Source: Limnomonas spitsbergensis (taxonomy: Eukaryota > Chlorophyta > Chlorophyceae > Chlamydomonadales). Taken from it: 64,000 nucleotides of DNA. Shown in pieces: positions 9,935 to 63,480 of the stretch (position 1 is its first letter; each line of letters begins with the position of its first letter). Both the position numbers and the translations under genes were made by a program. The stretch is taken from positions 310,001 to 374,000 of the forward strand of contig JAYJMM010000084.1 of the NCBI GenBank assembly GCA_037349105.1, in the 5' to 3' direction. The notes under the pieces are model-generated. The model did no database searches, was not told the origin of the DNA, and saw only the letters and a list, made by a program, of their open reading frames with translations.

Positions 9935-9972
9935 GCGCTTGATGGTTGCATCGCGCTCCAGGATTTCGGCCT

Positions 9973-22452: not shown

Positions 22453-22626
22453 TAACGACATGCGGAAAATTGAAGCCTTGGATATGGAAAATCAGACACT
22501 TAGGAAAATCGGAACAACATCGCTAACGCTTTGCAAAAGACTCTGTCACGTATGTAAGGCTACCGAAACAATCGACATCGACAGCGAAAAATACGCGAAA
22601 GACTCACGAAATACTCACGAAAGACT

Positions 22627-42500: not shown

Positions 42501-45500
42501 ATGCTTTCAGGATACAAGGACAGGGTTTCAGGGTACAGGGACATGCTTTCAGGGTACAAGGACAGGGTTTCAGGGTACAGGGGCATGCTTTCAGGATACA
42601 AGGACAGGGTTTCAGGGTACAGGGACATGCTTTCAGGGTACAAGGACAGGGTTTCAGGGTACATGGGCATGCTTTCAGGATACAAGGACAGGGTTTCAGG
42701 GTACAGGGGCATGCTTTCAGGGTACAAGGACAGGGTTTCAGGGTACAGGGACATGCTTTCAGGGTACAAGGACAGGGTTTCAGGGTACAGGGACATGCTT
42801 TCAGGGTACAAGGACAGGGTTTCAGGGTACAGGGACATGCTTTCAGGATACAAGGACAGGGTTTCAGGGTACAGGGGCATGCTTTCAGGATACAAGGACA
42901 GGGTTTCAGGGTACAGGGACATGCTTTCAGGATACAAGGACAGGGTTTCAGGGTACATGGGCATGCTTTCAGGATACAAGGACAGGGTTTCAGGGTACAG
43001 GGGCATGCTTTCAGGATACAAGGACAGGGTTTCAGGGTACAGGGACATGCTTTCAGGATACAAGGACAGGGTTTCAGGGTACAGGGACATGCTTTCAGGA
43101 TACAAGGACAGGGTTTCAGGGTACAGGGACATGCTTTCAGGATACAAGGACAGGGTTTCAGGGTACAGGGACATGCTTTCAGGATACAAGGACAGGGTTT
43201 CAGGGTACAGGGACATGCTTTCAGGATACAAGGACAGGGTTTCAGGGTACAGGGGCATGCTTTCAGGATACAAGGACCGGGTTTCAGGGTACAGGGACAT
43301 GCTTTCAGGATACAAGGACAGGGTTTCAGGGTACAGGGACATGCTTTCAGGATACAAGGACAGGGTTTCAAGGTACAGGGACATGCTTTCAGGATACAAG
43401 GACAGGGTTTCAGGGTACAGGGACATGCTTTCAGGGTACAAGGACAGGGTTTCAGGGTACAGGGACATGCTTTCAGGATACAAGGACAGGGTTTCAGGGT
43501 ACAGGGACATGCTTTCAGGGTACAAGGACAGGGTTTCAGGGTGCAGGGACATGCTTTCAGGATACAAGGACAGGGTTTCAGGGTACAGGGACATGCTTTC
43601 AGGATACAAGGACAGGGTTTCAGGGTACAGGGACATGCTTTCAGGATACAAGGACAGGGTTTCAGGGTACAGGGACATGCTTTCAGGATACAAGGACAGG
43701 GTTTCAGGGTACAGGGGCATGCTTTCAGGATACAAGGACAGGGTTTCAGGGTACAGGGACATGCTTTCAGGGTACAAGGACAGGGTTTCAGGGTACAGGG
43801 GCATGCTTTCAGGATACAAGGACAGGGTTTCAGGGTACAGGGACATGCTTTCAGGATACAAGGACAGGGTTTCAGGGTACAGGGACATGCTTTCAGGATA
43901 CAAGGACAGGGTTTCAGGGTACAGGGGCATGCTTTCAGGGTACAAGGACAGGGTTTCAGGGTACAGGGACATGCTTTCAGGATACAAGGACAGGGTTTCA
44001 GGGTACAGGGGCATGCTTTCAGGATACAAGGACAGGGTTTCAGGGTACAGGGACATGCTTTCAGGATACAAGGACAGGGTTTCAGGGTGCAGGGACATGC
44101 TTTCAGGATACAAGGACAGGGTTCCAGGGTACAGGGACATGCTTTCAGGATACAAGGACAGGGTTTCAGGGTACAGGGGCATGCTTTCAGGATACAAGGA
44201 CAGGGTTTCAGGGTACAGGGGCATGCTTTCAGGATACAAGGACAGGGTTTCAGGGTACAGGGACATGCTTTCAGGATACAAGGACAGGGTTTCAGGGTAC
44301 AGGGGCATGCTTTCAGGATACAAGGACAGGGTTTCAGGTTACAGGGACATGCTTTCAGGGTACAAGGACAGGATTTCAGGGTACAGGGGCATGCTTTCAG
44401 GATACAAGGACAGGGTTTCAGGGTACAGGGACATGCTTTCAGGATACAAGGACAGGGTTTCAGGGTACAGGGGCATGCTTTCAGGATACAATGCCAAGGT
44501 TTCAGGGTGCAGGGACATGCTTTCAGGATACAAGGACAGGTTTTCAGGGTACAGGGGCATGCTTTCAGTGCCAGGAAACGGCCAAGCATCTCAATACATC
44601 ATTCAGGAGAGGGAATGAGGACGGACAGGCATAGATGCCCACACCAAGCAGTCCACGAGACAACGTAAACAAAATATATGCGGCAAAACCGTAACTCGTT
44701 CTTGATGGCCGATCCTGCGCGTGCTATCTTGCAAAGTCTCCGGGTTCAAGCCCTAAACACTTAACCTACCCATCGGCTCATGCTGTTCGTCACATCCTGC
44801 AGAGTTCCCGAGTTATCAGCAAGGTCCTCGACCTTCACCCTTACCTGCAGGCCTGCGGTGCTCATCCCAGCCTGCAGAATCTCCAGGTTACCAGTAAGCC
44901 CCTAAACCCTCTACATTTAACCTTACCCGAAGGCCCACACTGCTTGTCCCATCCTGCAGAGTCACCGGGTCAAGGCCCTCAACCCTGAACCTTCAACCCT
45001 ACCTGAGGGCCTGCACTGCTCGTCCCATCCTGCAGGGTTTCGGGGGATGCGTATTCGGGCGTGAAACCAAAGCCGGACACCTGAGGGGACGAAGCAGAGG
45101 CAGGCCAAATGCAACAACTGTTAGCTTCAGCCCAAGATCAGGAGAAACAAGGGCGCATGGGGCCCGTGTGTTGGGTGCGGTCCAGCGGCATTATAAGCGT
45201 AGAAGCAGAGGCAGGCCTAAAGCAGGGGGTAGGCGGTGAGACCAGTAAGAAATGCAAATCTTGGCTGATATCTCTCGTGAGCATACTTGGCACTACCGAT
45301 TAGGCTGATGCGGGCAGAAACTTGATCGACCTCCGGCCAGTGCCTGAGGCACTGGCACTACAGAAGATGGACATACCTGGCCAGCAGGGTGTGCTGCACC
45401 AAGCCCCCTCGGCCACACGCCGCAGAGTAGGTTACGTGTAGCTGAGGCGCCTTCTGAATTTTACAGCGGCAGGTGCTGACGGCCCGACCTCCTGGTGACT

Positions 45501-48500
45501 CGCACTGTCATGGTTTGTGTAGCTGTTACACCCCCCCCCCCCCTTTGTTTCGCACAGCCTGGCTCTTTCGAAAAAATAGGCTGTGGGTGGTTGCGCAAAC
45601 TTTGCAACAAAACAAAGCAACTCACAAAGTAGTGCATGTGCTGCCTGCCCTTCTCCCGGAGCGTGCCGTAGTCCCCAATCTTGTATTCCGGGGCAAGATC
45701 CGAGCCCCCGATGAACACGTTGGAGGGCTGCACAAGGCAGCACCACAGGTGCGGGGGAAGGGAGGTGATGGCCAGTGATTATTCTTTTCAGTACTGAGTA
45801 CGACTCGTACAGAAACACAATCTCGCCCCTTCAAATCTCATGATAGCCCCCCCCCCCCAAACACACACACACACCACCACCACCAGTGTGGGCAGGCGGA
45901 CAGTCATGAAAAGTGTGGGCAGGCGGACACTGATGAAAAGTGTGGCCACTGATTCTGTTAGTCAGTACTGAGTACGACTCGTACAGAAACACAGTATTGC
46001 ACAAATGATGGTCCTCAAGCCGATGAACATGTTGGACGGCAACACGTGCTGGGGAAGGAGGGGGTGATGGCAGTCACCGACATACCCCGACAACAATAAA
46101 ACAGATGCCCGAGCCCAGGTCCCCTGACAGATCTCTCAGATCTCATGATACATCCCGTTTCTCCAATTCCCCATACTGTTCCCCTACCCCTGATCCCCTG
46201 ATCTACATCCTTGTCCCCAAATCCCCGGACAGATCCCGAAACAAATCTTGGCCCCCAGATCACAAGATAGATCTGGTCCGCCAGATCCCCAGATCCAAAG
46301 AAAGATCCCATGCCCTCGATTCCCCGACAAATCACGGTCCCACAGGAGGCCCCAATGAAAACGTGGAACAAGACCAGTTTTGTTCAGGCTGCACATTAAA
46401 GTGCATAATCTTCCTTTAATCTTCATCCCTTTCGCATCATCATCAAAATACCGCTAAGCATTAAATGGTTTCGGTCTCCATTCCCGCACTTCACTCACGC
46501 CGTACACAAGCCCGCTTTCACCCTAAACCCTAATCCATTGCTTATTTGCTTCGCTTTCACTTCGCTGTAACCAGACTACAGCTATCCAAGGTGTTGACCC
46601 TGCTTCCAAGCTTTCACCCTAAACCCTAACACCCCCCTCCTTGTCCAATCTGGAGTACAACAGCCCAAGGCCTTGAGTAGATGTTGAGGGGGATACCCAA
46701 GCTTTCACCCCGACCCCTAATACATGGCTTCACATTCAATTCGCAGTACACCAGCCCACTCCTGTAGAAGGTGTTGAACCCACATCAGCCCTCCACCCAC
46801 ACATCCCGCCATACCTTGAGGTCCCCATACACCAGCCCGCTCTTGTGCAATGTGTCCAGCCCGCTCAGGACGTCCATGGCGATGCGCTGCACCAGCTCCT
46901 CGCTCAGACCCAGCCCAGGGACAAGCAGCCCCTGCAACATTAAAGAGTGCAACGACATTGGGTTGAGCTTTAGGGTTCAAGGTGAGCGTCCATGGCGATG
47001 CGCTGCACCAGGTCCTCGCTCAGACCCAATCCGGGGACAAGCAGCCCCTGCACCAATGAGGCTGAACAACATAGGGTTGGCACTTAGGGGAGATCACCTA
47101 GTGTTACTTTAAGGTTCACACCTTACATCGCTACCTCGGCCCTGGTTCACACCCGTACATCACCACCTCCACCCTGGTTCACACCCATACATCGCCACTT
47201 CGGTCCTGGTTCATATCCATACATCGCCACTTCCACCCTGGTTCACACCTGTACATCGCCAACTTGGCCCTGGTTCACACCTGTACATCCTCTCCTCAGC
47301 CCTGGTTCACACCCCTACATTGCCTCCTTGGCCCAGGTTCACACCTGTACATCGCCACCTTGGCAGTGCTCCGAGTAGATATTGAGCGCACCGCCCTTCT
47401 TGGTGAAACCCAGCAGCTTCACAAGGTTCAAACTGCCAGAGAGCTGTATTGACACAAGTGTGGAGTGTGGACATAGAGCAGATTCACTTGGTGCAAACTG
47501 ACAGGGAGCGATACACATACTAGTGTAGACACACACCTGCTTCACGTGGTTCAAACAGTCAGAGGGCTGCGTTCACACAAGTATGAAGTCTGGACATGCA
47601 ATAGTTTCACTTGGTGCAAACTGACGGAACAGCGTCCAGAATGTGGACATGCACCAGCTTCACCAGGTTCAAACAGCCACAGGGCTGCGTTCACGCAAGT
47701 GTGGATTGTCAATGTACAACAGCTTCACTAGGAGCAAACAGACAGAAAACGGTGTCCACGCAAGTGTGGACAAACAGCAGCTTCATGCGGTTTAAACAAC
47801 CATACAGCTGCGTCCGCAGAATTATCAGGAGGGCAGCGTCCCCACTTCCCTCCTCCCCTCCTCCCCCAATTTCCCACTCACCTGTTCATGATGGCGCGCC
47901 CAAGTGTCCCACTCGTTGAGCGTAGCGGCATACTTGAAGCTGTCCATTCCGTCTGCCTGAGGCAGCAAGGACATGCTTGTGGGAACATGGCAGCAGGCAA
48001 GCAGCATAGATCATTCCTCTCACCCATTCATCATATGATAGATTGACAGGTGCGAACAAACACATGCACAAACACATACCGTCTGAGGCAGCAAGGGCAA
48101 GCTTTGTGAGAAGATGGCAGCAGACAGGCTGCCTGGCGCGGCAGGGGCATTACCCAAACCCAAGAATCATGCATTCAAGCGGCAGGGGCACACACACACA
48201 CACACACACACCAATCGCACAGGCAATCCATACAGGGACAGGGCAACCAGGCCATCCATACAAAGACATCAACCAGGTGGCCGTCCCTCCCAGCCTCCCT
48301 ATCGAAGTGCTGCACATGCTGTGCCCCTGTAACTCTATTTCCTTCCCTCATCGCACCTCGATGCTGTTAATGCGTTCAAATCGTGACCCTGAAACCAGAC
48401 AGCCATCCCACCCTGCCTCTCGCTCTCCTTTCCTCCACACAGGCAGGTGGGCTCTCAATGCTTTGCTTCTCTTACATGACCTATTAGACCACCTAGTGCT

Positions 48501-49270
48501 ACGGCCGAGCGGGTGGCCTCCTTAATCCACACCCCAGGGTATTTTTTATCATTTTGTATTTATTTATTTATTTATCCCTTCTATGACCCTGGCACTAGTC
48601 GACCGTCCCTCCCTCCCGTCCCTCCCTCCCTTTTAATGTTATTCTTCTCAACTACGACCCTGAGGTGGCCATACCTCCCTGCCTCCTCCCTTCCTCCCTC
48701 CCTCCCCCCTGCCTCCTCTCTCCCTCCCTCCCTCCCTGTCAATGCTGTTCATGCCCCCCCCCCTCCCTCCCTCCTCTCTCCCTCCCTCCGTCCTCCCTGT
48801 CTCTTCTCTCCCTCCTCCCCCCCCCCCTCGCCTCCTCTCCCTCCCTCCCTCCCTTCTTTGAAGGTGCACACGCTGTGCTTCTGTTCATGCCTCCCTCCCT
48901 CTCCCCCCCTGCCTCCTCTCTCCCTCCCTCCCTCCCTGTCAATGCTGTTCATGCCCCCCTCCCTCCCTCCTCTCTCCCTCCCTCCGTCCTCCCTGTCTCC
49001 TCTCTCCTCCCCCCCCCCCCCCCCCCCCCCCCCCGCCTCCTCTCCCTCCCTCCCTCCCTTCTTTGAAGGTGCACACGCTGTGCTTCTGTTCATGCCTCCC
49101 TCCCTCCCTCCCCCCTGCCTCCTCTCTTTCTCCCTCCCTCCCTCCCAACCCCCCTCCTTCCTTCCCTCTCCCCCTTCCTCCCTACCTTGGTATTATAAAT
49201 GCTGTGTTTCTCCACCATGACCTTTGACTCCCCCCCAGCTGAGGTGGAGGGCACTCGCACCACCGACACC
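33509..49270 (-). CDS. protein kinase gene, kinase-domain and C-terminal exons
   Basis: Nine phase-compatible minus-strand exons with GT-AG borders encode a full kinase domain, likely Ser/Thr or tyrosine-kinase-like. E2 49186-49270 (VSVVRVPS, SKVMVEKH; candidate ATP Lys). E3 47882-47956 (TLNEWDTWARHH, candidate helix-C Glu). E4 47345-47443 (LNLVKLLGF, YSEHCQGGDV hinge). E5 46815-46931 (helix E, then LVYGDLK). E6 45626-45727 (PSNVFIGG, KIGDYGTLRE). E7 45003-45080 (FTPEYASPETLQ). E8 35518-35583 (ADLWSFGIMLHELATG). E9 34870-35001. E10 33509-34138 (QACMHDAPGKRP, FPWF), ending in an Ala/Val-rich tail with TAG or equivalent at 33509. The catalytic loop is Y-G-D-L-K rather than HRDLK (non-RD), DFG is DYG, APE is SPE. 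E3 through E10 all join in phase 0. Introns carry exon-edge repeats, and intron 7 is 9.4 kb. E10 could be spliced before its stop. Confidence 0.85.
35601..44568. repeat. 42-bp minisatellite, about 213 units, inside a kinase intron
   Basis: An unbroken array of about 8.97 kb. The unit is ACATGCTTTCAGGATACAAG followed by GACAGGGTTTCAGGGTACAG and GG, that is two related 21-bp halves. Variants recur (GGGGCATG, GGTACAAGG for GATACAAGG, CTCTCAGGATACAATG). Since 42 is divisible by three and the unit lacks stops in several frames, very long open frames appear on both strands (over 3,000 codons); they are by-products. Only one length change was noticed, an extra T near 39733, which swaps frames half way. 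The array fills intron 7 of the kinase gene, ending 17 bases before exon E8 (35583). Confidence 0.97.
44690..45002 (-). repeat. exon-edge repeats next to the kinase SPE-box exon
   Basis: About four degenerate copies, 75-90 bp each, of the 3' end of exon E7 with its donor (plus-strand core CTGAGGGCCTGCACTGCTCG then TCCCATCCTGCAG). Copies lie near 44700, 44760, 44848 and 44925; the authentic edge is at 45003. They sit between the exon and the 42-bp array. Confidence 0.65.
47113..47344 (-). repeat. 32-bp tandem repeats of a kinase exon donor
   Basis: Seven 32-bp units start at 47113, 47144, 47176, 47208, 47240, 47272 and 47304; the eighth, at 47336, is the real exon E4 3' end. Each holds the last exon bases (GATGTACAG on the minus strand) and the donor GTGTGAACC. 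Confidence 0.85.
47444..47825 (-). repeat. tandem repeats of a kinase exon acceptor edge
   Basis: Six degenerate copies of about 50-67 bp of the 5' edge of exon E4 and its intron border (plus-strand pattern CAGCTTCACNNGGTTCAAAC, then AGNGAGCTG and CACAAGTGTGGA) begin near 47477, 47537, 47601, 47652, 47719 and 47777. The authentic edge is at 47443. Confidence 0.8.
48553..49180. repeat. CCCTC-rich pyrimidine tract in a kinase intron
   Basis: CCTCCCTC-type low complexity with long C-runs (48830, 49010). A block TTCTTTGAAGGTGCACACGC with CTGTGCTTCTGTTCATGCC occurs twice (48858, 49060), giving a repeat of about 200 bp. Pro/Ser and Gly/Arg frames here are artefacts. Confidence 0.8.
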
Positions 49271-49539
49271 CTGCACGGCGGAGGGTCGGGGCAAGGGGGG
49301 ACAGAGGGCAAAGATCAGCGGCACTGCTTATCTTTTTTGAAGAGTGGACAGGGGGCAGCAGCAGAGCTTACTTTTTTCAAGGGGGGACAGGAGTCAGAGA
49401 GGGCAACAGGGGGCAAGGGGGGACTGGCAGTAGTGACATTATTTCGTGTTTGGGGTATGAAGTGTTACCCAGGCAGCCAGGCCTTGTCGGGGGCATGATG
49501 GGAAGCGACAGTGCTTACTTTTGGGGGGGGGTGAACTAA

Positions 49540-50130
49540 GGCCGCAAGCATACGCAGACAAAAGTATTCCTCCACTACGCGTCCCCCGCGTAGTGAGGAG
49601 ACCTCGCCTGCTTGCAGGCGCGGTCCCCTAACCTAGCAGAGGATCACCGAAACCCGCACCCTGCTATGTGGGGTAGCGGGTTTCGGTGTCCCTCGTAGTA
49701 GAGGAGCGGGTTCTTGGTGTAAGGGTATGCTTAAGAGAATCAGCGGAATTGCTTAGGTGCCCTACGGGCGTCCGAGCACTCCCGCTGATTCTATAAAGCG
49801 GAGGCGTTGCCCCAAGAATTAAATTCTGGGACCAGGGCACTCGAGCAATCCCGATGATAATCTGAAGTGAGAAGCACCCTTACCACTGTTGCGCGCTCAC
49901 TGTCAGGGACCCAAATTGACCTCGTGGGGGTCCCATCGAGGTCTCTCCACCGAAGGTGGCGGGACTCGGCGGACCCCACACACCTTTGGTGTGTGAGGCA
50001 AAGAAAGGCCGCAACACGCTTTAGAGAATCATCGGTATCGCTCAGGGTCTCTCTGGGCACAGCGCAAAGGCGGGATCCGCCACGGACAATAAGCTACGCT
50101 GGTTGTCCCGGCGAACCGCCTTGACCGTCC
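49540..50130. other. cluster of palindromes, structured insert of unknown type
   Basis: Within the intron between kinase exons E1 and E2. Exact stems: 49645-49657 with 49676-49688 (13 bp), 49736-49746 with 49782-49792 (11 bp), 49918-49924 with 49937-49943 (7 bp), 49947-49951 with 49955-49959 (5 bp, GAA loop), and 49977-49984 with 49988-49995 (8 bp, TTT loop). An AGAGAATCAGCGG-like motif recurs near 50029. The texture resembles short dispersed palindromic repeats of algal organelles, or a structured RNA; neither is shown. 50130-50470 has no feature. Confidence 0.5.
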
Positions 50131-50476
50131 TGGGACCCAACTTATTTCTTGGTTCGGGATCCCGTTTTTTCAAAGACAGAAGAGCAGCTTATAGGGTTGA
50201 GAGTTAAGGGTGACCTGGATAGGAAATGCATACACCTAACACACCCAAACTTATACACCTGTACTTCAACACATACGCCTACAGTTCCACACTTCGGAGT
50301 GTACCTAAACAACCGTACTGAATAGCCGCACTGCAACAGCCTTTCGTCCACCTTTGCAACAGCCCTGCTTCCTACCCGCACAGCTTCCTCGCCTCCATCA
50401 CACTAATCATGGCAACATGGGGACACAAGATACCGTACCGGTGCAGTCAAATGAGGCGATTTTCGTATTTGTGTGA

Positions 50477-51710
50477 CTCAGCTACATGTCCAGAGTTCCC
50501 AGTTGTGGCTGGCCTAACTGCCTTGGGCACCAGTCGTAAGCTGGTCCTGATCGGGTCCCAATCCGGCATTTGGCAGCTACGGGAATGCTGCGGGGCGGCC
50601 TGCCGAAGGTATCGACTCAACAGCCAAAAAAGGGAACACTGGTAGGAAATTAAATGATTTCACGATAATATATCGAAGGACAATCTTTTACCTACCATCA
50701 AACATCAAAAAACATTACGCACCTGTCAGCGGTCCTGTAGCCCGGCGCCTCGGCCTCCTCCTCCCTCTCCCCTGGCGGACTCTCCTGCTGCCCTGGAGGT
50801 TCGCTGTAACTCCACTGGCTCTCCAAGTTCGCCCGCTCCAAATCCGCCCACTCCCCCTCCAAGTTCGTCTGCTCCCCCTCCACACCGTCATTGCACACTC
50901 CCTCCCCGTCCTCCTCCGAGCCCTCGCCCAACGTTCGCCCCGCCTCAACACTTCTACTAAGCCCGCTGTGTATCTCTGCAGCACCCGAGCGGACAATGTC
51001 ATCGCACTCGGTAGAGGCAGCCTCATATTTTGCCACTGGCCTTGGAACCAGCAGTAGCACCGGCCCCGCTGCAGCCCCTACAGAGGACAGAGCCGCAGCC
51101 ACACCCTGCTGCAGCTGCTCCTGCTCCTGCTGCCTCTCATGTGCCTGCTGTTCCTGCTCCTGCAGGGGCGCCGGCCCAGCAGAAGACAGAGCTGTACCCT
51201 GCTGCATCTTCTCCTGCTGCCTCTGACGTGCCTTCCGCTCCTGCTCCTGCAGCAGTAACAGCGCCGCCGCCCGCGCCCCCTCCAGCTGCGGCGGCAGCGG
51301 GAGCGCAGCTGCAGCCGAGGCAATGATCGGGAGCGCCGCAGCCAAGCGCGGCCGCGGCACGAGCTGCTGCATCTGCTCTGCAGCAGAGAAGTCCCAGAGG
51401 GCCAGGGATGGCGGCGGAACTGAAGGTGCTGCAGCGGGAAGCAAGTGGGGAAGATGGGCATCAGTGGGTGGACAAGCCTTGAAGGAGAAAGCAATCGGCA
51501 CCCTGTTAAGCAATGCGTGGTAAAGAGGGGCACCAGCAGCGTTTCTTTGTTTTTTGTCAATTCTACCTTCGGCAGGCTGCCCTGCAGCTGCCAAAGGCCA
51601 GATTGGGACCAAACCAGGGCCGGCCTACAACTGGTGCCCAAGGCAGTTTGGACGGCCACAACAGGGCCTCTGGCCATAGGCCAGAGTGCAGCTGACATGT
51701 AGCTGAATCA
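50477..51710. repeat. inverted repeat of about 110-130 bp flanking kinase exon E1
   Basis: 50477-50610 is the imperfect reverse complement of 51565-51710, sharing CAGCTACATGTC, CTGCCTTGGGCACCAGT, GGTCC and GCAGCTNC-GGCNGCCTGCCGAAGG. A third partial relative lies at 52812-52846. It is probably a dispersed element; no coding or terminal structure was found. Confidence 0.65.
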
Positions 51711-52557
51711 TGGGGGGGAAAACTGGGCGCCAGTAACTGAGCCAGGAGAATGCGGTCAGCCCACTGCTTGTTACTGCCGGCACAGCAACAGGAAGCGATT
51801 GGGGAAGATGAGCATCTGGAAGTGAGCAAAGAGGATAGCCTGCAGGGTGACCTGCCTGTAGCGTCCCTGGATGCTACCAAGTCTAAGGCTATACAGATGT
51901 ATATGCTGCACATCTTTACAATGGGCAGTGTATTGTATCTTGAGGATATTTTTAGAAGATATCTTGAGGATATGTCTTGAGGAGATACTGACAGTACTGA
52001 GCGAGGCGGGGCTCTTAACATTGCGTCACTCTCATCCATGTTCAACAAATTGGCAAAGCGCTACACTGCCCCACCCTTGACCCGGTCTCACCCGCTTCTC
52101 TGTTGATGCCGCCGCCAGGACAGCCCCGCCTTACCCTCGCCCCGCTCACACCCACTGCACTGCCGAGCTGGCCCTACCCATCCACCCACCCACCCACCTA
52201 GAACCACCCTGGCCCCACTGTCACCCACCACCAGCCTCACGCCAATCCACCATAGCCCCCCGCTCTACCCCGCACTTACCGGCCCTCGCCTTGCTCACAC
52301 CCACTGCACTGTCGAGCCGGCCCTACCCGCCCCTCCCAAAACCACCCTAGCCCCACTGCCACTCACCACAAGATCCCACCAACCCACCATGGCCCCCTGA
52401 CCTTGCCTCGCGCCCACCTGCTGTACTGCCACTGCCGCCGCTAGGCTGGCCCCAAACGCCCACGAGTGCCCGCCTTAGCGTCTCAAGAAATGAGGGCGTA
52501 TCAGGCGACGAGGCGCGGCAGCAGATAAAGCGCTTGTTGGAGCAGGTGCCACCGCCT
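50723..52557 (-). CDS. likely N-terminal exons of the kinase gene
   Basis: Two minus-strand exons in phase with the kinase exons. E0 52418-52557 (46 codons: GGGTCSNKRFICC, FLETLRRALVGVW) ends at donor GTGGGC in phase 1. E1 50723-51428 follows acceptor CCGCTGCAG, supplies the two missing bases, and runs 234 codons to donor GTGCGT in phase 2, where E2 (49270) begins with the one base needed. E1 has an Ala/Pro-rich start (SLALWDFSAAEQMQQL), then a Gln/Glu/Arg-rich coiled-coil-like part (LLLQEQERKARQRQQEK and QEQEQQAHERQQEQEQ), then an acidic Glu-rich region. I do not know the region; a regulatory or oligomerising role is inference. The start codon is not identified and may be further upstream (52.6-53.8 kb). 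Both joins could have intervening exons. Confidence 0.5.
52120..52417 (-). repeat. repeats of a kinase exon donor edge
   Basis: Two copies (near 52133-52172 and 52291-52325), about 160 bp apart, match the 3' edge of exon E0 and its donor: plus-strand GCTCACACCCACTGCACTG-CGAGC-GGCCC against the authentic CGCCCACCTGCTGTACTGCC. Confidence 0.6.
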
Positions 52558-52956
52558 CTGCTTTTCCCAGCAATGGGAGCGGGGAAAGGGACACGCAGCA
52601 GCAAGCATGGCTCCAAAGCTATCTGAGAGCCTATTCTGCGAGCAGCTGCACGGGCTGTCTGCGGGCGGAGTCTGGCGGCAGAGGTGCCCGGCCTTCGATT
52701 CCCGACGTTGCAGCCTGTGCATTCCAGAAGCAGCAGGGGAGGGGGCAAGGATTATGCTTGTCGCAATGAGGAAGGCAACTGCCGATACAATTATGTTGAT
52801 TTTGAGGATTTGGCTTGTCGGCCGGTCATGGTTTGGTCCCCAATAGCCCGTTTGTGATCTCCCCAATTGTGGTCTCCCCAGACCCCTTACCTACACGCGG
52901 AATTACTCCTAATCATGGGGATCCTCCGAGACCTTACTCCAGCCCCCCTCCATGCA

Positions 52957-53025
52957 TGGCATGGCATGGCATGGCATGGCACGGCATGGCATGGCATAGC
53001 ATGGCATGGCATAGCATGGTATAGC
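52957..53025. repeat. CATGG pentanucleotide microsatellite
   Basis: About fourteen CATGG/CATAG units. Confidence 0.9.
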
Positions 53026-53836
53026 ATCCAACCCTCTCAAACAGCCCGCAACAGTTACAAAACAAAGGTTTAGCTTTTCCCTTGAATATTTCAGCATCTC
53101 TTATAGAAGATATCATGCGGTTGTTGGAATGGTAAGGGGGGTCGCAAAATCGGCAGTCAGGGGCGGTGCGGCGTGTCGGTTGTGACAGGACACGTGTCTA
53201 AGCACGGCAGTTGTTGCCGTCACCTCCTTCCGCTTGTCTGCCCAACATCCGAAAACTCCATAATCTCTCACCTGTCGTCATTCCGTCAGCATTCGAAGGC
53301 ATATAGGCACAGATATTAGAAGCTTGAGTTGGGGCGCCCCTGAAGCTCCTCTGACTTCCCGTCTCCACCCCCGCTGGGCCTACGGCTGGTCCCGGAAAGC
53401 TGTTCCCGCAGCAGATTCCAAATAGTGATTAGGTCATGGGATGCTGGTTTTGCTGTTGACAGCGGACATGCGCAGCGTTTTGGCCTACCGACGTCCGGAA
53501 CACGAGGTCCGCACCGACCAGGAGTCAGCTGAGATAAACATACCACGCCCCATGAAGCCTATCCCGCGACAGTCACTAGTATTCGTCTCCTGCTTGGTTT
53601 GTCGAGGGCTTTGACGACACACTTGTGTGCGTTGCCGACGCGTAATAACGTGCGGTGTAAAACGATGGTATCTGTCGATGGTATGGGTCCGGGTATGGGT
53701 GGTGTGAAAAGCTTGGACAACCCGGTCCAACTTCGAGGTCCCACTTTCGTCGCATGTCACACAAAAGGTGGACTTAAATGCGTACGCACAGGGGCTGTAC
53801 AGGGAGTCAGTAGGGTATCATGATGCACTGAGTGGG
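53026..53836. promoter_or_regulatory. probable shared upstream region of divergent kinase and metacaspase genes
   Basis: The kinase gene runs left from at least 52557 and the metacaspase gene runs right from about 53837. The intervening sequence has no supported gene. No TATA box or named element could be assigned with confidence. Confidence 0.3.
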
Positions 53837-56800
53837 ATGTCACAGGAAACTCGTCGCGCCATGCTGCTTCAGAATGGCGGACTGCTCCTCCTAGCAATCC
53901 TCGCTACTGCCCATGCAACATCCGCACAGTCCTTTTCCGAGGACATCACATCGACGCCATACACAGCTTGCGGCTACTTCACCCTGGGCTACCAGGTGCG
54001 AAATGCTGCAACATTTGCTGCCACGCACGCGCACGCAACACTGCGCTAGGAGGGTGGGCCGCTCTAAGGCTACCCGACTTCCACCACCCCGCACCATGAA
54101 GCCAAGCCGCAAACACTGCGATTGTGGCACAATTAAAATCAACCTGGCGCTTACGGGAAATGGGGTTGCATCGCGCAAAACGCGCGGGCTCCTGCATGAG
54201 GGCCTGACATGGAGAGCCGCTCTGGAATCTGGATGAGCCCAGAGTAAGATCAGGCATCCGACATCAGTCAAAAACAAGCAGCCAGCAGGCATTAGGCTTC
54301 TTAAATTATTTATTATAGACTCGAACTTTGTTAAGTACAAGCAAAGGAACAGGCATCAGCCTAGCAACAGATGAGCAGGCATCTGACATCAGACATGGAG
54401 AGCCATTTTTGTTTTCCATGCCATGGTTTGGAGCAGCAACAGACAGCTGGCATTGTACCAGTAATCTTCATGTGCGGAATGCCGTCAGTTCGCACCTGCA
54501 ACCAGCACCCCTAGGATGTGATGTTCTGGCTCATGCAACAAAGCAGCAGAAAGGTACCTAGCACGTTGGCAGCCCCCTGCCCCCACCCCAGGCTGATTAC
54601 TGAGTTATTTACTCTTTTTAGTGTGAACCCAGTAATCCATTATTTAGGGCCTTTCTCACATGTGTTGTGACGAAGGCCCTGTCCATGGGGTTCAGAAGCC
54701 ACCACCCGAGACCGCTTGGCATTGCACCATGATCAACCAGTGGCTTGAAGGCCCAGCACCAGGGCATGCTGCATCAGGACCACTCATCCGCAGGGAACTG
54801 AACTGTGGCTGAACTGTAGCTGAAATGCAGCTGAACTATAGCTAAAAATAGCATCAGGTGAGCCACCACCCCTGACCCCTCCTTGATGCATACCTGCAGA
54901 TATGGTGCACTAGCAACGCAAATGTATACATCGCACTCGCAACGGTGAGAGAGGGCGGGATGGCAGGAAGAGAGGTGGGCAGGCAGGGGTCTCTGCACTG
55001 GGTCCGGCCGGATGACACGTTCAGTGCTGGGTTGCTGCTACATAGCTCGGATAGCTTAATAGGGTTTAGGGGTACCAGTACCTAGCTCAAATAGCTTGAT
55101 AGGGAGAAGGATAAAGGGTACCTAGCTCGAATAGCTGAACACCGTCCAGCTGCTATTATGTACCATATCTGATGGTTAATGCGAGGCAGTCACTTAAAGA
55201 CTCGAGCGCCGGTTTTGTAGAAATCCATCTAGAGTAGGTATAGCGTTGCAGGAAATTGTTCATATTACGCAGCACCCCGCCACATTTGGCTGGTCGCTGT
55301 GCAGCCACCCCTTGGCTGATGGAGACCTAACCTTGACCAACCGAAATCCTGCGGCTCAAGCAGGGGTGCTTGCTTCAGGCACCTACGGCGGGAGGAGGTG
55401 ATGTGGCTGAATTGCAGCTGAAGCATCATACACAAAAAGTAGCACCACACCACCAGAACACAACTTCTAGTTATCACCGTTGCTCTGATTGAATTGACAT
55501 TGGTGCGAGGTGCCCCTGTCATAGAAACAGGGTTTGGAGGAACTGGGGCTTGGAGGATCAAGGGTTTGGAGAAACAGGGGTTTGGAGGAACAGGGGTTTG
55601 GAGAAACAGGGGTTTGGAGAAACAGGGGTTTGGAGATACAGGGGTTGGATGAACCAGGGGTTTGGAGGAGCAGGGGTCTGGAGAACCAGGGGTTTGGAGA
55701 AACAGGGGTTTGGAGGATCAGGGGTTTGGAGGGACAGGGTTGTGGAGGGACAGGGTTTTGGAGGAACAGGGGTTTGGAGGGACAGGGGTTTGGAGAAACA
55801 GGGGTTTGGAGGGACAGGGGTTTGGAGAAACAGGGGTTTGGAGAAACAGGGGTTTGGAGGGACAGGGTTTTGGAGGAACAGGGGTTCGGAGAAACAGGGG
55901 GTTGGAGGAACAGGGGTTTGGAGAAACAGGGGTTTGGAGAAACAGGGATTTGGAGAAACAGGGGTTTGGAGGGACAGGGGTTAGGAGGAACAGGGCTTGG
56001 AAGTTGAAGAGTTACTGCTTCAAAACTAAAGGACTGCAACCACCCTCTGGCCACAGCCTTTTCTGGAAGGGCCAGGTAGATCAGACCGTCAGGAAATCTA
56101 GAAAGAGGAGCTATAATGCTAGATATAAGGGGCAAACAAATGCAGGAGGCAAACAGCCCATGTTTGTTTTCTACCCTGTCAGGACCTGACGAGGACCCGG
56201 CCCCTCAACCCAAGCCCAAAACCTTTAACTTGTCAGTTTTTGGGGTTAGGGAACCTAAACCCTAAACCCTAAGCCTTAAGCAGGGAGCAGTGCCGTGTCT
56301 GATACCCCTTAAGCTTAAGCCTAAACCCTAAAATGCTTCCTCTTCTCCTCTCCCTCTCCCCATCCCATTCCCCCCTTCATCAACCCCTTATATTTCCCCG
56401 TCCATCTGCAGGCCTGTGCCTCACCCACCAATTGCACCGCAACCTCGTTGTACGCGTCAATGGCCTGCGGCCCGGCCTCCACTTGCTCAGGTGCGTGCAG
56501 CCAGCCTTGATAAGCAGCCTTCATAATTATTCAGGGAGGTGTGGCTTGGGGTATCCGCGGAGGAGTGAGATCGGTGCTGACCTGGCAGCGCCACCAGAGC
56601 AGTTTAGGGAATTGGGTGCTGACATGGCAGCGCCACCAGAGAAGTCTAGCGCAGTGGGTGCTGACCTGGAAGTGGTGTCGAGAGGAGCGTGCAGGATTTT
56701 CCTCTGGATTCCCTCATCTGCAGCCTTTGATACATTTCTGCCGGCACAATCAGTATTGTAACGACGACATTGAAACCCTTCGTTTTTCACCAGATTAATG

Positions 56801-57823
56801 AGGGGCACCCTTACCCCAACCCCCCCCTTCACTAGGCAACGCCTTTCAATGGAGCACTCCTCCCCCTAACGTGTCTCACACTGATGTCATACAGCCCACT
56901 CCAAACATTTCGAACACTAATTTAAAAAGGAGCCCCCCCCATTCACAATTCCCCCGAATACATAGTGCCATTCAAAGGCAGCAGCTCCAAAGGAACACAA
57001 CTCTTCCTGATGCCTCCCCCAGTATCTCAATACCACGCCCCCAAGTGTGTTTTATTCCAGTACATAAAGCCCCCCCCCTCCGCAATGACCCGTACTACAT
57101 AGTGCCATTCAAAGGCATGCAGCTCCCCCAATATCTCGATAACCCTCCCCCGAACCACATGTTTTATACTTTAAGGACCCCCTCCTCAGCCTGCGCAATA
57201 CCCCCTCCATTACGCAGTGCCATTCAAAGGCAGCAGTTCCAACGTGGAAAAACTCTGCCTTCACGTATCCAACGCACTAGCAGCAGGCACAACCAACAAG
57301 TGTGACATCAGCATTAACGGTGCGCGCCCATGTGTGTCGCAGCACACATTTGTGAAGCACACTCACGAACGCTCTCGAGATGTATGCAGATGTTGCAGAT
57401 ATTGCAGATGTTGCAGATGTATGCAAGATATTGCAGATGTTACAGATGTTGCAGATACTGCAGATGCTGCTAATGTTGCAGATGTACGCAAGATATTGCA
57501 GATATTTCAGACGTGCGCAGATGTTGCAGATGTATGCAGATGTTGCAGATGGCGCAAGGTAGGGGACACCATGAGGCGGTTAGGACTTTGGAAACAAATC
57601 CAGGAGTTACAAAAAACATATTTATGCATACAAAATCCCTGAACCCTGAACCTCAGGCAACACCTCTCCCGACGCTGCACTGTCCGACTCCAAGTGGTCC
57701 GCGGAGAAGCTTGGGCTGGTCATTGGGCTCAGCTGCGTTGGCAGCATACTTGTCCTGGGGGGGCTGGCAGCAGCCCTGTACTACGGCATTGCGGCCTGCC
57801 GCCGCTGCAGCAAAAGACCTCAG
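53837..57823 (+). CDS. likely N-terminal exons of the metacaspase: signal peptide, Cys-rich segment, TM helix
   Basis: Three plus-strand exons join in phase with each other and with the metacaspase exons. M1 53837-53995 (53 codons) starts MSQETRRAMLLQNGG and has a hydrophobic core LLLLAILATAHATSAQ, a good signal peptide, then SFSEDITSTPYTACGYF; donor GTGCGA, phase 0. M2 56412-56490 (26 codons plus 1 base) is Cys-rich (ACASPTNCTATS, ACGPASTCS) between acceptor CTGCAG and donor GTGCGT. M3 57657-57823 supplies two bases (Gly), then NTSPDAALSDSKW, a single helix LGLVIGLSCVGSILVLGGLA, then basic CRRCSKRPQ, as in a type I membrane protein; donor GTGGGC, phase 0. A second start (53861) would also keep the signal. 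The joins are inferred; further ectodomain exons may be hidden in 54.0-56.4 kb. Confidence 0.5.
55524..56005. repeat. minisatellite of GGAACAGGGGTTTGGA units
   Basis: About thirty 16-bp units, GGA(G/A)AAACAGGGGTTTG and GGAGGAACAGGGGTTTG variants, within the intron between M1 and M2. Open frames on both strands here are repeat artefacts. Confidence 0.9.
56555..56675. repeat. short tandem repeat, about 45 bp, three units
   Basis: GGTGCTGACCTGGCAGCGCC followed by ACCAGAGCAGTTTAGGGA recurs with changes near 56573, 56617 and 56658, in the intron after exon M2. Confidence 0.6.
56884..57245. repeat. degenerate tandem repeat of 113-137 bp, three units
   Basis: A core AGTGCCATTCAAAGGCA plus GCAGCTCC appears at 56963, 57100 and 57214, with CCCCC-rich and TATCTCAATA-type blocks between. 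Confidence 0.65.
57378..57560. repeat. GATGTTGCA nonamer array
   Basis: About twenty degenerate 9-bp units (GATGTTGCA, GATATTGCA, GATGTATGCA) in the intron between M2 and M3. Confidence 0.85.
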
Positions 57824-58060
57824 GTGGGCCTGCCATCATTGGATTGGGGAATCTTGGGTGGGCCTGCTGTCACTGGAGTGGAAACCTCGGATAGGCCGCT
57901 GCTGCAGCAGAAGACTTAAGGTGGGCTTGCCGTCCTTAGATTGTGAAATCTTGGGTGGGCCTGCATTCACTAGATCTGGAAAATCGGGTGGGACTGCAGT
58001 CACTGGATTGGGCAGCCTCTGGGGTGCCTGCCACAGCGGCAGCCGAAAACCTCAGATGGG
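57824..58060 (+). repeat. repeats of the TM-exon donor edge
   Basis: The end of M3 with its donor (GCTGCAGCAAAAGACCTCAG then GTGGGCCTGCC) recurs near 57885-57920 (CTGCAGCAGAAGACTTAAG, GTGGGCTTGCC) and near 58030-58055 (CGGCAGCCGAAAACCTCAG, ATGGGG). GTGGGCCTGC with TCACTGGATTGGG is repeated about six times between. Confidence 0.7.
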
Positions 58061-58116
58061 GGTAGCAAACATGATATCGGGCTTTAAGGTAGTTTATGGC
58101 GTAGGGCCTGGGGCCT

Positions 58117-58158
58117 AGAGAGTAGGGTGTAGGGTTTAGGGCTTAGGGCTTAGGGATT
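58117..58158. repeat. telomere-like TTTAGGG stretch in intron
   Basis: GGGTGTAGGGTTTAGGGCTT and TTAGGG variants. Confidence 0.6.
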
Positions 58159-58495
58159 CAGCTTTACACAGCTATTGTGCTGGTGGGGTGCTATGATGCC
58201 TCTTTCAATCTCTCACCCAACATAACCATTCAGGGCGTACAGGAACGACTCGGAGAAAGAGGGAGAGGGAGGGGCTGAAACTCGCCGCTATTCGACAGTT
58301 TTTCAAAACTCATGCATCGGTATGAATACCCCTCTGTCCAACCTTCTCCCACCCTCTGGAATGAGGCCATACCCAAAAAATCCAGCATGCGCCTCCTTTG
58401 CTGCTCCTTTCATATCTAGCATGAACCTACTGACACCCCTGCCAAGCAGCACCCCTCTCACCCAATGCCTACCCGTGACTGCCCCGTTTTATCAG

Positions 58496-61400
58496 GTGAC
58501 TCCATACACCCAGCACATGCCAGTCGCAGCCCCCTTCGTCCCCGGCTACGCTGTCAACTACAAGGCCACCATCGGCGCGGAGAGAGCGTGCGGCGTGTGG
58601 GGGCAGCAGGGGGGGACCTGGCGCCCGATGACGTTGCAGCACCAGGATGGTGTGAAGCCGGCGCTGTTGCCGCTGCCTCAGCAGGCATACCGGCAGCTGC
58701 CCACGGTGTCCATGGGAGCGGGCGCTGCAGGAGCAGAAGCGCAATTTGGAGCAGGAGGGCGAGTGGGTGCGGGAGCGGGAGGGGGAGCAGAAGTGAAAAT
58801 GGAAATGGGCGCTATGTCAGCTGGAGCTGGAGCTCAAGGGGGGGACGCTGCTGCCGTAAGCCGGGGTTTCTTCATGGCGGCCAAGGGCATTCCGTCCCGC
58901 AAGGCTGTGCTTGTCGGCTGCAACTACCCGGGCACCCAGTCCAGCCTGCAGGGATGTGTGAACGATGTGCTGGCCATGCAGGTGTGGATGGAGGTGTGCA
59001 CAATATGTGCATGTGTGAACAACGTTTTGGGCCAATTGTTGTTGGGATTGGGACGGTTCTACATCCTAGATCTAGATCTAGGGGCAGCCAGCACAATTTC
59101 TCAAAACACGCCTTAGCGGGAACAGTGAGATTCTCCCGTGGCCAGGGGGCGGGATGGAACTTGCCGGTGCAGATGTACTCCTTATCTATGCACTACCTCT
59201 TGGCAACTTTTTAGTTGTGTTGGACGTTTGGAGGACGAGGCTTTGAATGACCGCTGATCAGACAGCACATGTGGATGAGGAGGATTCCATCCTGTTTTGA
59301 ATCCATTTTATTTGAATTTAAATGTGTATAATGTTCCGGTAACTTTCATAGCCATTACTTGACTACTGTAACTCCCATCTGGAACAGCTCTACATCATGG
59401 GACGTTCTATTGATGGCTGATGGTTTTGACCCATATCCCGTATCCAATGACCTGAAACCCATATACCCATACAGTTTAGTCCTCAATCCATTACCTGAAC
59501 CCATTACTCATAATCCAGAACCCTAAACCATTAACACATAACCCATGAACTAGAGGTCTAGGCTCCATAACTCATAACCCTTCGCCCTTAGCCCATAACC
59601 CTGAACTGTTAATTCTTAACCCTTAAACCTACACCCTTAACCCTTAGCCCTCAAGCCTGAACCCTGAAATCTGAACACTTAACAATTAACACTTGACACT
59701 TAACCCCTACCCCTAAAGCCCTAACCCATCACGCTGCAGGACCTGTTGAAGACGGTGTATGGTTTTAAGGACCAAGACGTCGTCATTCTGATTGACACGG
59801 ACAAGACAGGGCTACAGGTACCATTGCTGTGGACGGACGTTGTGGATGGCTGTTGCGAGTAGCTGTTGCAAGTTGGTTTTGCAAGTTGGTGTTGCGGATA
59901 GATGTATTTGTCATGGCGGGAGCAGGGCCGGGAGTCTCAAGTTAGGGTAACAGTGTGTTCAGGGTGTGCTCTCCGGGGTCTGATATGTAGGTGTAATAGG
60001 TGTAATGCATTAATGCGTGTGATTGCTCCGTATAGAGGTTGTTGAAGTAATACCCAAGGATGATCAAGTGGGCTTTAAAGCGACTGTGGGTTAAGAGACG
60101 AAGGGAGAGACAAGGGCTTGACCTCAGAATTTACATTACAGTGAAGAGGGTAAGGTGAAATGACAAGGGAGGTGGTAACCACAGTGTCCGACTGTCTGCA
60201 CTGTAAAGGGGTTAGTGGTTGGGTTTAGGGTGAGGGGTTGGGGTTAAGGGTTTAGGGTAAAGGCTTAAGGTTAAGGGGTAGGGCTTTAGTGTTAGGGGTT
60301 TAGGGTGAGGGTATGGGTTAAAGGTGTATGGGCAAGGGTTTAGGGGTAGGGGTTAAGGGGTTAGGGGTATTACCAGTCTCCGCTACAGCCAGCAACAGCC
60401 GCTGACTCTAACCCCCCCCCACACCCACTATCGTCTCTCTCCCTTCAGCCTACTGGTCGCAACATTAAGGCCAAGATCGCTGAGATGGTGGCCGCGGCTA
60501 AGGATGGTGATGAGCTGGTCTTTCACTTCAGCGGGCATGGCACGCAGGTGCCCTCCTCAGATCAGGTGAGAGGTGGAGAACGAGAGAAGCTTTCTGGGGC
60601 AACAGGGCACATGTGCCTTCAACAGGTAAGGGCACAGGTGCCTTCAACAGGCAAAGTGGGAGCGGTGAACAGAACGGAGGTGATAGATTACAAAAGGGCT
60701 CAGACTGCTGAGACTGACGGAAGAGACAAGGTCATCTGACCATAAAGGCATGCGACATGAGCATCCTTTGGGATATTAATTATTTATTTATTTGCACTGA
60801 CCTACTGGCTGAGTCTGAAGGCAGGGAAAAGGCCATCAGCCTAAAAGGCATGCAACATGAATATTATTTGGAAACACGAGTTTTCATTTATTTGTATCGC
60901 CCATCAGGCTGAGACTGATGGCAAGGACGAGGCCATCTGCCCTTGTGACATGAACATCATTTGTGACAACGACTTGCGTGACCTTCTGTCTCCGCTCTCC
61001 AACCGGCCCAACACCAAGTTCACCTTTGTGGCGGACTGCTGCCACTCGGGAACATTGCTAGACCATGAACAAGTGGTCATCACAGGACCCAAGGTAGGAG
61101 ATGAGGAGGGGGGGGGGGGGGAGGGAGATGGACGGAGGTAAGGAGAGGGAGGGAGAGGGAGGGAGAGGGAGGGAGGGAGGGAGAGGGAGAAAGGGAGGGA
61201 GAAAGGGGAGGGAGGGAAGGAGGTAGGGGGGGAGTGAGGGGGGAGGGAGGTAGTGAAGGAGGGAGAAGGTGGTAGGGAGGGCACTGGGGGTGTTTGGCTA
61301 CGAGGCGGAAGGAAGGCCCCCAGATGTGTGAGCGGGAGGGGCATGTCATTGAGGGAGGGAACATTTTGGGATTTAGGGAGCAGCCACATTAAATATGAGG

Positions 61401-63021
61401 ATGAGCTTTGATGCCCGGCTGTCAGCATAGGTCGACCATCTTACTGATTTGCATCACATGATCAAGAATATAGGATGGATAGTGCCTCTGTGTGCTTGTT
61501 ATAAACATTCCTTGTAACGTAATTGTAACCAAGCCAGAGGGCATGGAAGTTTTGTTGGTTGATATTGGCTAGTTGATGAGGTGCTTGTGCTAATTACGTT
61601 ATGGACTACAAAAAAAAGCAATTGCCGTATCTTATTGCACGACTGCCCCCCAAAACGAATACCTAATATAATACTAATTGCAGGTGGGTGGGCCTCCGCC
61701 CCCCGACCCCGCGAGCGTTGCGGCCACTCGGGCCATGCTTGCGGGCATGGGCGGCAAGAAGAGCATTCCCCGGTCCCTCCCCTACTCAGACCTGTGCAGC
61801 ATTCTGTCTGGCATGCAAGGCGGCACTACCCAGGTCAACAGCCAGAACATGCACACCACCATGATGGGGCTGTTTGGGGAGGATGCCAGCGGAAAGACGA
61901 AAATCGCAATGGTGAGAGTGGGAGTGCAACACAGCGTGGAAGTGTGGAACTGGTAGTGTGAAAGGGTGATTAAAATGGTGAGAGAGGGAGTGCAACATAG
62001 TGCAGAAGTGTGGAACTGGTAGTGGCATAGTGTGATTAAATGGTGAGAGAGGGAGTGCACCATAGTGTGGAAGTGTGGAACTGGTAGTGTCATAGTGTGA
62101 TTAAATGGTGAGAGAGGGAGTGCAACATAGTGTGTAAGTGTGGAATTGGTAGTGTGATAGTGTGATTGTAATGTTGAGAGAGGGAGTGCAACACAGTGTG
62201 GAACATGTAGTGTGACAGTGTGATTTTAATGGTGCGAGAGGGAGTGAAACACAGGGTGGAAGGGTGGAACTGGTAGTGTGACAGTGTGATTATAATGGTG
62301 AGAGAGGGAGTGCAACACATGTACACAGTGTGGAAGTGTGGAATTGGTAGTGAGACAGTGTGGTTGCATTTGTGGGATATTGTGTGGAAGAGTGAGTGTG
62401 GTATCAGTAGTGGCTAAGTGTGACCCTGGCAGTGTAATGGTGTAATATGTGAATCGTAATTGCATGGGTGAGACCCGTAGACAGACTGGATCATCTCTTC
62501 AAGACTAGTGTGAGTGTCACACTGGAGTTGAACCTCAAGATGCCTCGCCTTGATGAGTGATCGTTCTTGTTGCCACAAGGTAACGCAACCACCCACAGCC
62601 TTTTCAACAGGGTGAGGCAGAGAAAACCTGACTGTGCCTCCTGCTGGGTCCACAGATGTTGGCAGGGAAAATCGGAAATGGAATCGGAAACTTGGTTGGA
62701 GGGCAACACGGAGCAGCAATCAGCCAGGGAATAGCCGCCGGCATAGGCCACTTGTTCAGTGGCGGCGGAGGAGGAGGAGGAAGGGGATGGGGGGGAGGAG
62801 GGGGGCTGGGAGCTCTACCCCAACTGAATCCTGGCGGAATAGGAAGAGGAGGAGGAGGGCTGGGATCTCTGCCTCAATTGAATCCTGGAGGAGGTGGAGG
62901 AGGAGGGGGCGAAGGGGCAGCGGGGGGAGGTGCAGGGCTGCAGCCCTCCCCATTTGCCGCAGTTCAGCCTGAGGAGGAGAAGCTTGGAGCCGACATCGGT
63001 ATCCTTTTCTCTGGCTGTCAG
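58496..63021 (+). CDS. metacaspase (peptidase family C14), catalytic exons, 3' end outside window
   Basis: Six plus-strand exons, all phase 0 with GT-AG borders: 58496-58981, 59740-59817, 60449-60565, 60908-61093, 61684-61911, 62656-63021. The first has about 130 residues of Pro/Gly/Ala-rich linker, then KAVLVGCNYPGT, the first p20 strand. The next is DLLKTVYGF then VVILID. The third holds the catalytic His in FHFSGHGTQ. The fourth has CPCDMNIICDNDL (the acidic calcium-site region) and the catalytic Cys in VADCCHSG, where DSCHSG is usual. The fifth contains SDLCSILSG. The sixth is Gly-rich and ends in LFSGCQ, the p10 SGCQ box. The following DETSADA-type segment is not found before 64000, so the gene is incomplete. 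Role: Ca-dependent Arg/Lys-specific cysteine peptidase, by family. Linker between p20 and p10 is long and Gly-rich. Confidence 0.9.
59430..59730. repeat. degenerate telomere-like CCCTAA stretch in intron
   Basis: Blocks such as AACCCATAACCCT and CTTAACCCTTAGCCC run up to the acceptor of the next exon (59739). 58982-59430 has no other feature. Confidence 0.6.
60227..60372. repeat. telomere-like GGGTTTAGGG stretch in intron
   Basis: GGTTTAGGGTGAGGGGTTGG and GGGTTTAGGGTAAAGG-type degenerate heptamers, opposite orientation to 59430-59730 in the same intron. Confidence 0.65.
60566..60907 (+). repeat. exon-edge repeats on both sides of a metacaspase intron
   Basis: Donor side: the edge GCAGGTGCCCTCCTCAGATCAG/GTGAG is echoed at 60606-60632 (GTGCCTTCAACAG/GTAAG) and 60634-60655. 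Acceptor side: GGCTGAGACTGATGGCAAGG with CATGAACATCATTTG is echoed at about 60700-60770 and 60810-60872, each about 100 bp apart. Confidence 0.65.
61100..61290. repeat. GGGAGGGA purine tract in intron
   Basis: GGGAGAGGGAGGGA-type low complexity directly after a donor. 61290-61680 shows nothing else. Confidence 0.85.
61912..62375 (+). repeat. 64-66-bp tandem repeats of a metacaspase exon donor
   Basis: The authentic edge is GCAATG/GTGAGAGTGGGAG. Six further units start near 61974, 62038, 62103, 62169, 62228 and 62294. Five contain AATGGTG(A/C)GAGAGGGAG, the donor included, and one has AATGTTGAGAG. All continue GTGCAACACAGTGTGGAAG. Confidence 0.85.
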
Positions 63022-63480
63022 GTGAGTTAAGGGTTAAGGTTGCAAGGCTTGGGATTTATAAAACACTCACTTTGCCTGTTGCATGTCAATCGAGGAATCC
63101 CTTTCTGAGGTTGTCAGGTGAGTGCAGAGATTCAGGCTTTGTTTAGGGTTTAGCATTAAGGGTTTCAGGCTGAAGTAGCTTAGGGTTTATGAGGTTGAGG
63201 ATATCCTGAACCCTAAACCCAAGAGCTGCCAGCCGTTATCCGAATCATGTTTTCAGGCTGCCAGTTTGGCAACCCCTGAGACCTCAACCCAAAGCCGGAA
63301 CACGCTGAACCCCACACCTTTATCCCTGACACCCAGAAAGCTTAACAAGACGGCCAGCTATGTATGGGGACTGAAGTATCACCACATGTTTGCTACCAGG
63401 ATCTCAGGGTTGTTAAGACTTATGTATACAGAGACATTTGGCCATGTAGGGTGTGGCGTTGTATGGGAACTTTGTTTGGA
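63022..63480 (+). other. intron start with a copy of the donor edge and telomere-like repeats
   Basis: TTTCTCTGGCTGTCAGGTGAGT is echoed at 63101-63125 (CTTTCTGAGGTTGTCAG/GTGAGT) and partly near 63250. GGGTTTAGGG-like pieces lie between. A next p10 exon could not be placed with confidence. Confidence 0.5.

Follow-up and report, generated by a model that had tools for sequence, protein, structure and literature searches.

Tandem duplication and intron change were reportedly treated together by Hellsten et al. in 2011. A tandem-duplication route of intron change is also known as the Rogers model, as told in parts of two accounts (PMC4974935, PMC3443670). The passages of the literature that bear on such events describe a duplication across one intron-exon boundary in the potato RdRp gene (PMC4974935), novel introns from tandem duplication in Drosophila (PMC2891723), and, in human genes lying in segmental duplications, internal tandem repeats located at exon-intron boundaries, with 27 intron modifications (PMC2812944). 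For the core-Reinhardtinia algae, long introns without the usual short peak are described, and an ancient driver of length is proposed in the section concerned (PMC8226300). According to the summary figures published with it, the genome of Limnomonas spitsbergensis comprises 260.248 Mb in 124 contigs with a mean intron of 788 bp (PMC11228838).

A stretch of 64,000 nucleotides of this genome at C84:310001-374000, referred to as the window, contains a metacaspase and a protein kinase gene with tandem copies of exon edges in their introns. The process operates in a similar way to the tandem-duplication route by which introns are known to change. As in the route of Rogers and of Hellsten et al., tandem duplication touching an exon supplies extra AG or GT sites and would leave the protein unchanged, but in the alga the introns are lengthened. 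Intron gain itself was not detected, because its defining feature, in-register splice sites lying in copies of one segment, was tested and found in none of 38 introns. The duplicated block in potato also spans an existing intron-exon boundary and takes splice signals along; as described, however, it concerns one gene and a new intron, whereas about a quarter of the sampled borders and intron lengthening are concerned here. Tandem repeats across exon-intron boundaries are shared with the human genes, in which splicing patterns change according to the part of the account cited. Those genes are recently duplicated, whereas in the alga ordinary multi-exon genes carry old, diverged copies at a higher border rate. 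For the long introns of the core Reinhardtinia, as characterized in the section cited, local tandem duplication is a candidate mechanism, sampled here in one species.

Junction copies in the metacaspase and kinase genes

The metacaspase gene has nine exons on the plus strand between 53861 and 63021 in a single open frame. Among 159 protein matches, the best was to Chlamydomonas eustigma (37% identity over 96% of the query), the nearest proteins being chlamydomonadalean. Its borders were set with a purpose-written spliced aligner and eight algal homologues. Donor 63021 was supported by seven of the eight, exons before 58496 were reached by one, and border 57823 is based on the open frame and the one homologue reaching it. 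Two extra exons proposed with one homologue (54900-54944 and 57218-57331) were left unused. The kinase gene, on the minus strand from 45003 to about 51100, was recognized by a Pfam protein kinase match.

A border was considered positive if an ungapped direct repeat with a score of at least 16 (match +1, mismatch -1.5) covered at least 4 nt on either side of the border and had its copy in the adjacent intron, at most 600 bp away. In the window, 30 borders were placed and tested, 17 of the metacaspase and 13 of the kinase gene. Clear junction-spanning copies with an ungapped score of at least 16 were present at eight of them, 57823, 60908, 61911, and 63021 in the metacaspase gene (plus strand) and 45003, 46931, 47345, and 47443 in the kinase gene (minus strand). 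Gapped alignment alone revealed copies at three further borders, 47952, 60565, and 45727, with scores reached by 0, 1, and 1 of 200 resampled introns, respectively. Border 49186 obtained an ungapped score of 21 through a purine-rich run in which three of four exon nucleotides match, and its copy lacks the GT; by the full criterion, the window count is nine of 30. The initial annotation, which had listed at least eight such borders, is thus borne out in number. Among the four edges that it had given by coordinate, 60908, 61911, and 63021 were found again, while 60565 is weak. The features are listed in Table 1.

Exon letters alone were also compared with the own intron. Eight of 28 edges scored at least 32 (57823, 60908, 45727, 46815, 46931, 47345, 47443, and 49186), and the top score with other introns or the reversed intron was 28; this set left out 45003 and 63021.

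Table 1. Exons, copies of exon edges and arrays in the window
Feature	Position	Strand	Remarks
Metacaspase exon	57657..57823	+	donor score 47.5, offset 97
Donor copies downstream of exon 57657-57823	57895-57950, 57959-58012, 58026-58081	+	
Metacaspase exon	60449..60565	+	weak gapped copy of exon end at 60631-60679
Two copies of the start of exon 60908-61093	60700..60837 (60700-60736, 60783-60837)	+	score 24, offset 100
Metacaspase exon, start copied upstream	60908..61093	+	same borders with 8/8 homologues
65-bp array	61908..62317	+	about 6.4 copies (TRF)
Copy of the end of exon 62656-63021 with GT	63094..63136	+	score 17.5, offset 96
Kinase exon	45003..45080	-	donor is left end; score 34.5, offset 76
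Copies of the end of exon 45003-45080 and GT	44897-44956, 44826-44874, 44746-44799	-	GT kept in all three
Copy of the start of exon 45626-45727	46020..46045	-	exon part 18/20
Kinase exon	46815..46931	-	acceptor is right end; score 56.5, offset 116
Copy of the start of exon 46815-46931 and AG	47018-47075	-	exon part 57/61, AG kept
32-bp-unit array	47113..47364	-	about 7.9 copies (TRF); score 104.5
Kinase exon flanked by copies on both sides	47345..47443	-	
Kinase intron	47444..47881	-	six more copies of the start of exon 47345-47443
Six copies in intron 47444-47881	47479-47529, 47539-47596, 47603-47647, 47655-47709, 47720-47770, 47778-47810	-	
Gapped copy, acceptor of exon 47882-47952	48075..48108	-	mostly intron side

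The 32-bp unit of the kinase array is composed of the end of exon 47345-47443, the donor GT and the intron start, and on the other side of this exon, AG is intact in three of the six copies. In the metacaspase gene, of the two copies matching the start of exon 60908-61093, the nearer one no longer has its AG. Exon 61684-61911 contributes only its final 4 nt to the 65-bp array, which opens with them and continues with the donor. A 42-bp satellite of about 213 copies at 97% (35600-44568) adjoins the low-coordinate end of the kinase gene.

The metacaspase gene extends further to the right, and a second catalytic unit (unit 2) follows unit 1 in tandem in the stretch from 58889 to 72046 (window coordinates), its exons reaching the end of that stretch; for the acceptor 70269, there is an alternative at 70260. 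Comparison of homologous borders revealed that the two units differ in bearing copies. Unit 1 has copies at 60908 and 63021, and the corresponding borders of unit 2 are below the cut-off (68329, score 9.5; 70646, score 0). Unit 2 has copies at 66861, 67530, and 69149, and at this score none was found at the homologous unit 1 borders 59817, 60449, and 61684. Arrays are present at one pair of homologous borders, 61911 (65 bp) and 69798 (66 bp), and copy offsets differ at another pair, being 33 at 65400 and 114 at 71392. These differences speak for duplication that takes no account of junctions and against copies being kept as spare splice sites. The exons of the units share between 67 and 100% identity in a patchy fashion, one pair being identical in 99 of 99 nt (65302-65400 and 71294-71392). 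Because of this patchiness, the sequences suggest conversion between the units, and dating of the copies by comparing the units was dropped for the same reason.

Unit 2 also contains an extra intron, 69273-69646, which is missing from exon 61684-61911 of unit 1 and represents either a gain or a loss. Introns could be born by tandem genomic duplication, with both splice sites derived from two copies of one segment bearing AGGT, and tandem duplications across exon edges do exist here. However, in the 38 introns the best score for an in-register match between the two junctions was 3.0, while scores among 1406 other junction pairs reach 8.0, a test that old, eroded cases would escape. The extra intron shares nothing with its flanking exons in the sole comparison available, that of the two metacaspase units. 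Birth of these introns by duplication is very unlikely in our view.

Occurrence in other genes

In total, 88 borders at 11 loci were examined, comprising the metacaspase gene with its tandem unit 2, the kinase gene, a DUF819 gene, a gene for an ice-binding protein, and seven dynein heavy-chain loci. Of these borders, 58 are outside the window (19 in the rest of the metacaspase locus, five in the DUF819 gene, three in the ice-binding gene, and 31 in the dyneins). With respect to the assembly of 260.23 Mb in 124 contigs, the 11 loci are a sample short of genome-wide coverage; seven are paralogues of one family, one consists of two paralogous units, the borders are predicted, and a single species is represented. 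The dynein loci were chosen by an exact P-loop DNA pattern, blind to repeats, and further genes by Pfam searches on open frames. A kinesin DNA pattern matched five places, none of them among the sampled loci. In the DUF819 and ice-binding genes, the borders were placed by eye, guided by the Pfam match, the open frame, and the splice motif. For the dynein P-loop exon, the first base was moved two bases beyond the start given by the aligner, at an AG present in all seven loci, and the donor of L024 was set three bases before the aligned position. The 88 do not include the metacaspase start codon or the arbitrary start of the kinase model, which form the first edges of these genes, and ends of last exons were counted only at L021, L024, and the kinase locus. 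A gametolysin-like gene with unplaced borders was also left out. The ice-binding gene (L016, C70:521017-521821) matches PF11999 on two exons, consistent with a snow alga.

A junction-spanning direct copy in the own intron was detected at 22 of the 88 borders, and in 18 of these 22 it takes in at least 15 exon nucleotides. Positive borders are distributed as follows: metacaspase unit 1, 5/20; unit 2, 6/16; kinase, 5/13; DUF819, 1/5; ice-binding, 0/3; and dyneins L019, 2/7; L020, 1/5; L021, 1/2; L022, 0/5; L023, 1/3; L024, 0/4; and L025, 0/5. Outside the window, 13 of the 58 borders were positive, five of them in dynein loci, so that the outcome named as refuting in the initial annotation, no enrichment of self-similar exon edges in other genes, did not occur in this sample.

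Markov-resampled introns gave 0/88 in each of ten rounds, inverted introns gave 0/88 as well, and swapped introns from other genes gave 1/440, the single case being between two dyneins. These controls bear on the possibility that the copies are artefacts due to the assembly, to sequence of low complexity, or to incorrect gene models. The purine run at 49186 is in line with such an origin, as are the predicted nature of the borders and the disagreement of homologues at 61911 (supported by four of eight) and 62656 (one of eight). Against it stand the resampled and inverted introns, the eight central metacaspase borders from 58981 to 61684, on which all eight homologues agree, and the divergence of the copies, which at 13-21% is too high for duplicated reads. 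An artefact is highly improbable.

Dispersed elements, introners or other mobile repeats, could also make up the introns, and retroelement domains do occur in the same window. The defining trait of introners, sequence common to introns of different genes, was observed in no more than the one of 440 swapped comparisons, which concern the sequence around junctions alone. In addition, a search of the assembly with kinase intron 47444-47881, passing over simple repeats and very frequent words, gave no match at E 0.001 other than the intron itself. It is extremely improbable that dispersed elements are responsible. The traits of ordinary intronic minisatellites, on the other hand, are all found: the repeats are head-to-tail (TRF arrays), local, in one orientation, and locus-specific, as the inverted and swapped introns indicate.

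Borders compared with intron interiors

Copies at a quarter of the borders could indicate that duplication favours exon-intron borders, for example through breaks or R-loops, and that introns owe their length chiefly to it. Pseudo-borders, 2130 positions inside the same 38 introns, argue against such targeting, since they were positive in 30-32% of cases compared to 25% of real borders. For the 76 borders with the whole intron known, 19 positives were observed and 22.6 expected, a ratio of 0.84 with a bootstrap range of 0.51-1.23. Duplication is not aimed at junctions, because intron interiors are positive at least as often as borders, and growth directed to junctions is unlikely. At score cut-offs of 25 or 30, 12 of 88 real borders were positive versus 20-25% of pseudo-borders. 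Because borders are rarer than interiors at these strict scores, junction-crossing duplications may be partly purged. The edge copies belong to a general process acting throughout introns and mark the places where it chances to reach exons.

Local direct repeats account for 32% of the bases in the 38 introns, any repeat being found in 29 of them, and Markov resampling of the window region yielded no repeats at the score cut-off. In exons, repeats cover 26% of the bases up to 20 nt from an edge (507/1959) and 11% of those at least 40 nt away (428/3867). Median intron length was 414 bp for the ten introns with less than 5% repeats versus 643 bp for the 15 with at least 30%. Among unannotated 40-kb blocks, coverage was 5.1% in C70:500001-540000 (L014-L017) and 0.8% in C84:270001-310000 (L006-L009); two other 40-kb blocks, which hold genes or long repeats, showed 16% and 33%.

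Several claims of the initial annotation have to be narrowed by these data. Introns do not consist of copies throughout, as the repeat share of their bases makes clear, and the units, given as 32 to about 160 bp, correspond to measured offsets of 22 to 379 bp at the 22 positive borders. Growth of introns by duplication across junctions holds insofar as tandem duplication adds length and some of it crosses junctions, but junctions are no special engine of growth.

Divergence of the copies and decoy splice sites

At the 22 positive borders, exon-side identity of the copies is 508/586 compared to 719/909 on the intron side, the exon side being less diverged, as expected if selection holds one partner of the exon-side pairs. 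By our own arithmetic, both identities follow from a drift of about 10% per intron copy, with exons drifting about a quarter as much. Splice dinucleotide positions match in 39 of 44 cases, and both splice letters are intact in 17 of 22 copies (donors 11/13, acceptors 6/9), numbers to be read with a bias toward intact sites, since the alignments were picked around the junction. Decoy splice sites are thus indeed left behind, though not in every copy as originally stated.

Such retention could mean that selection preserves the copies for use as spare or alternative splice sites. Overall copy identity, however, already predicts 14 to 17 intact sites among 22 (0.79 squared to 0.87 squared), the choice of alignments around the junction favours intact sites, and homologous metacaspase borders differ as described above; maintenance by selection is quite unlikely. 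Judged from their sequences, the decoy sites appear to be unselected, with no sign of removal by selection.

A proposed mechanism for intron lengthening

The repeats are local, direct, and particular to their own intron, and they are no commoner at borders than in interiors. We consider it likely, with a probability of about three in four, that recurrent local tandem duplication, blind to junctions, makes the copies in introns including those of exon edges, and that the outermost site is still used. In this alga's introns, short blocks of DNA would undergo recurrent head-to-tail duplication with offsets of about 20-400 bp, wherever splice junctions lie. A block straddling a junction would thereby duplicate the exon edge together with its splice site. 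The outermost site, the first donor or the last acceptor, would still be spliced, as protein homology suggests, leaving the protein unchanged; the intron would gain one unit, and the inner copy would be free to decay. Slippage or unequal exchange is the probable physical cause, and duplication of a junction should be near-neutral.

Some findings run counter to this proposal. Intron length and repeat content are weakly correlated (Spearman 0.27, P 0.11), and four of the 11 loci, the ice-binding gene, L022, L024, and L025, are without copies. The low coverage of the two blocks from C70 and C84 mentioned above argues against duplication being uniform.

A broader version, that this algal lineage tolerates junction duplication and that unchecked tandem duplication sets intron length, explaining the long introns of the Chlamydomonadales, is possible but doubtful. 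Were it true, the outermost site would be spliced despite similar sites within the intron at distances of some 20-400 bp. Should duplicated junctions be present at about a quarter of the borders in the genome, they would constitute a natural experiment on spliceosome choice between a true site and a nearby copy, and supply a mutational source of long introns in these algae that can be measured. Gene predictors are likely to face many decoy sites in such a genome. If the effect is small genome-wide, ordinary intronic minisatellite growth would be at hand.

Other features of the regions searched

Sets of open frames recur in C84:270001-310000 with a period of about 4.65 kb, forming a long tandem array of coding-like units. 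Long uninterrupted open frames in C30:500001-540000 (L010-L013) match a polysaccharide pyruvyl transferase, a Cas12f1-like TNB domain, and an IBR domain, and possibly represent a viral or mobile insertion. Pieces of retroelements with Pfam matches to an RT RNase H domain, a zinc knuckle, and RNase H are located in the window at 1321-2352 and 7946-10180 on the minus strand and at 22397-23632 on the plus strand.
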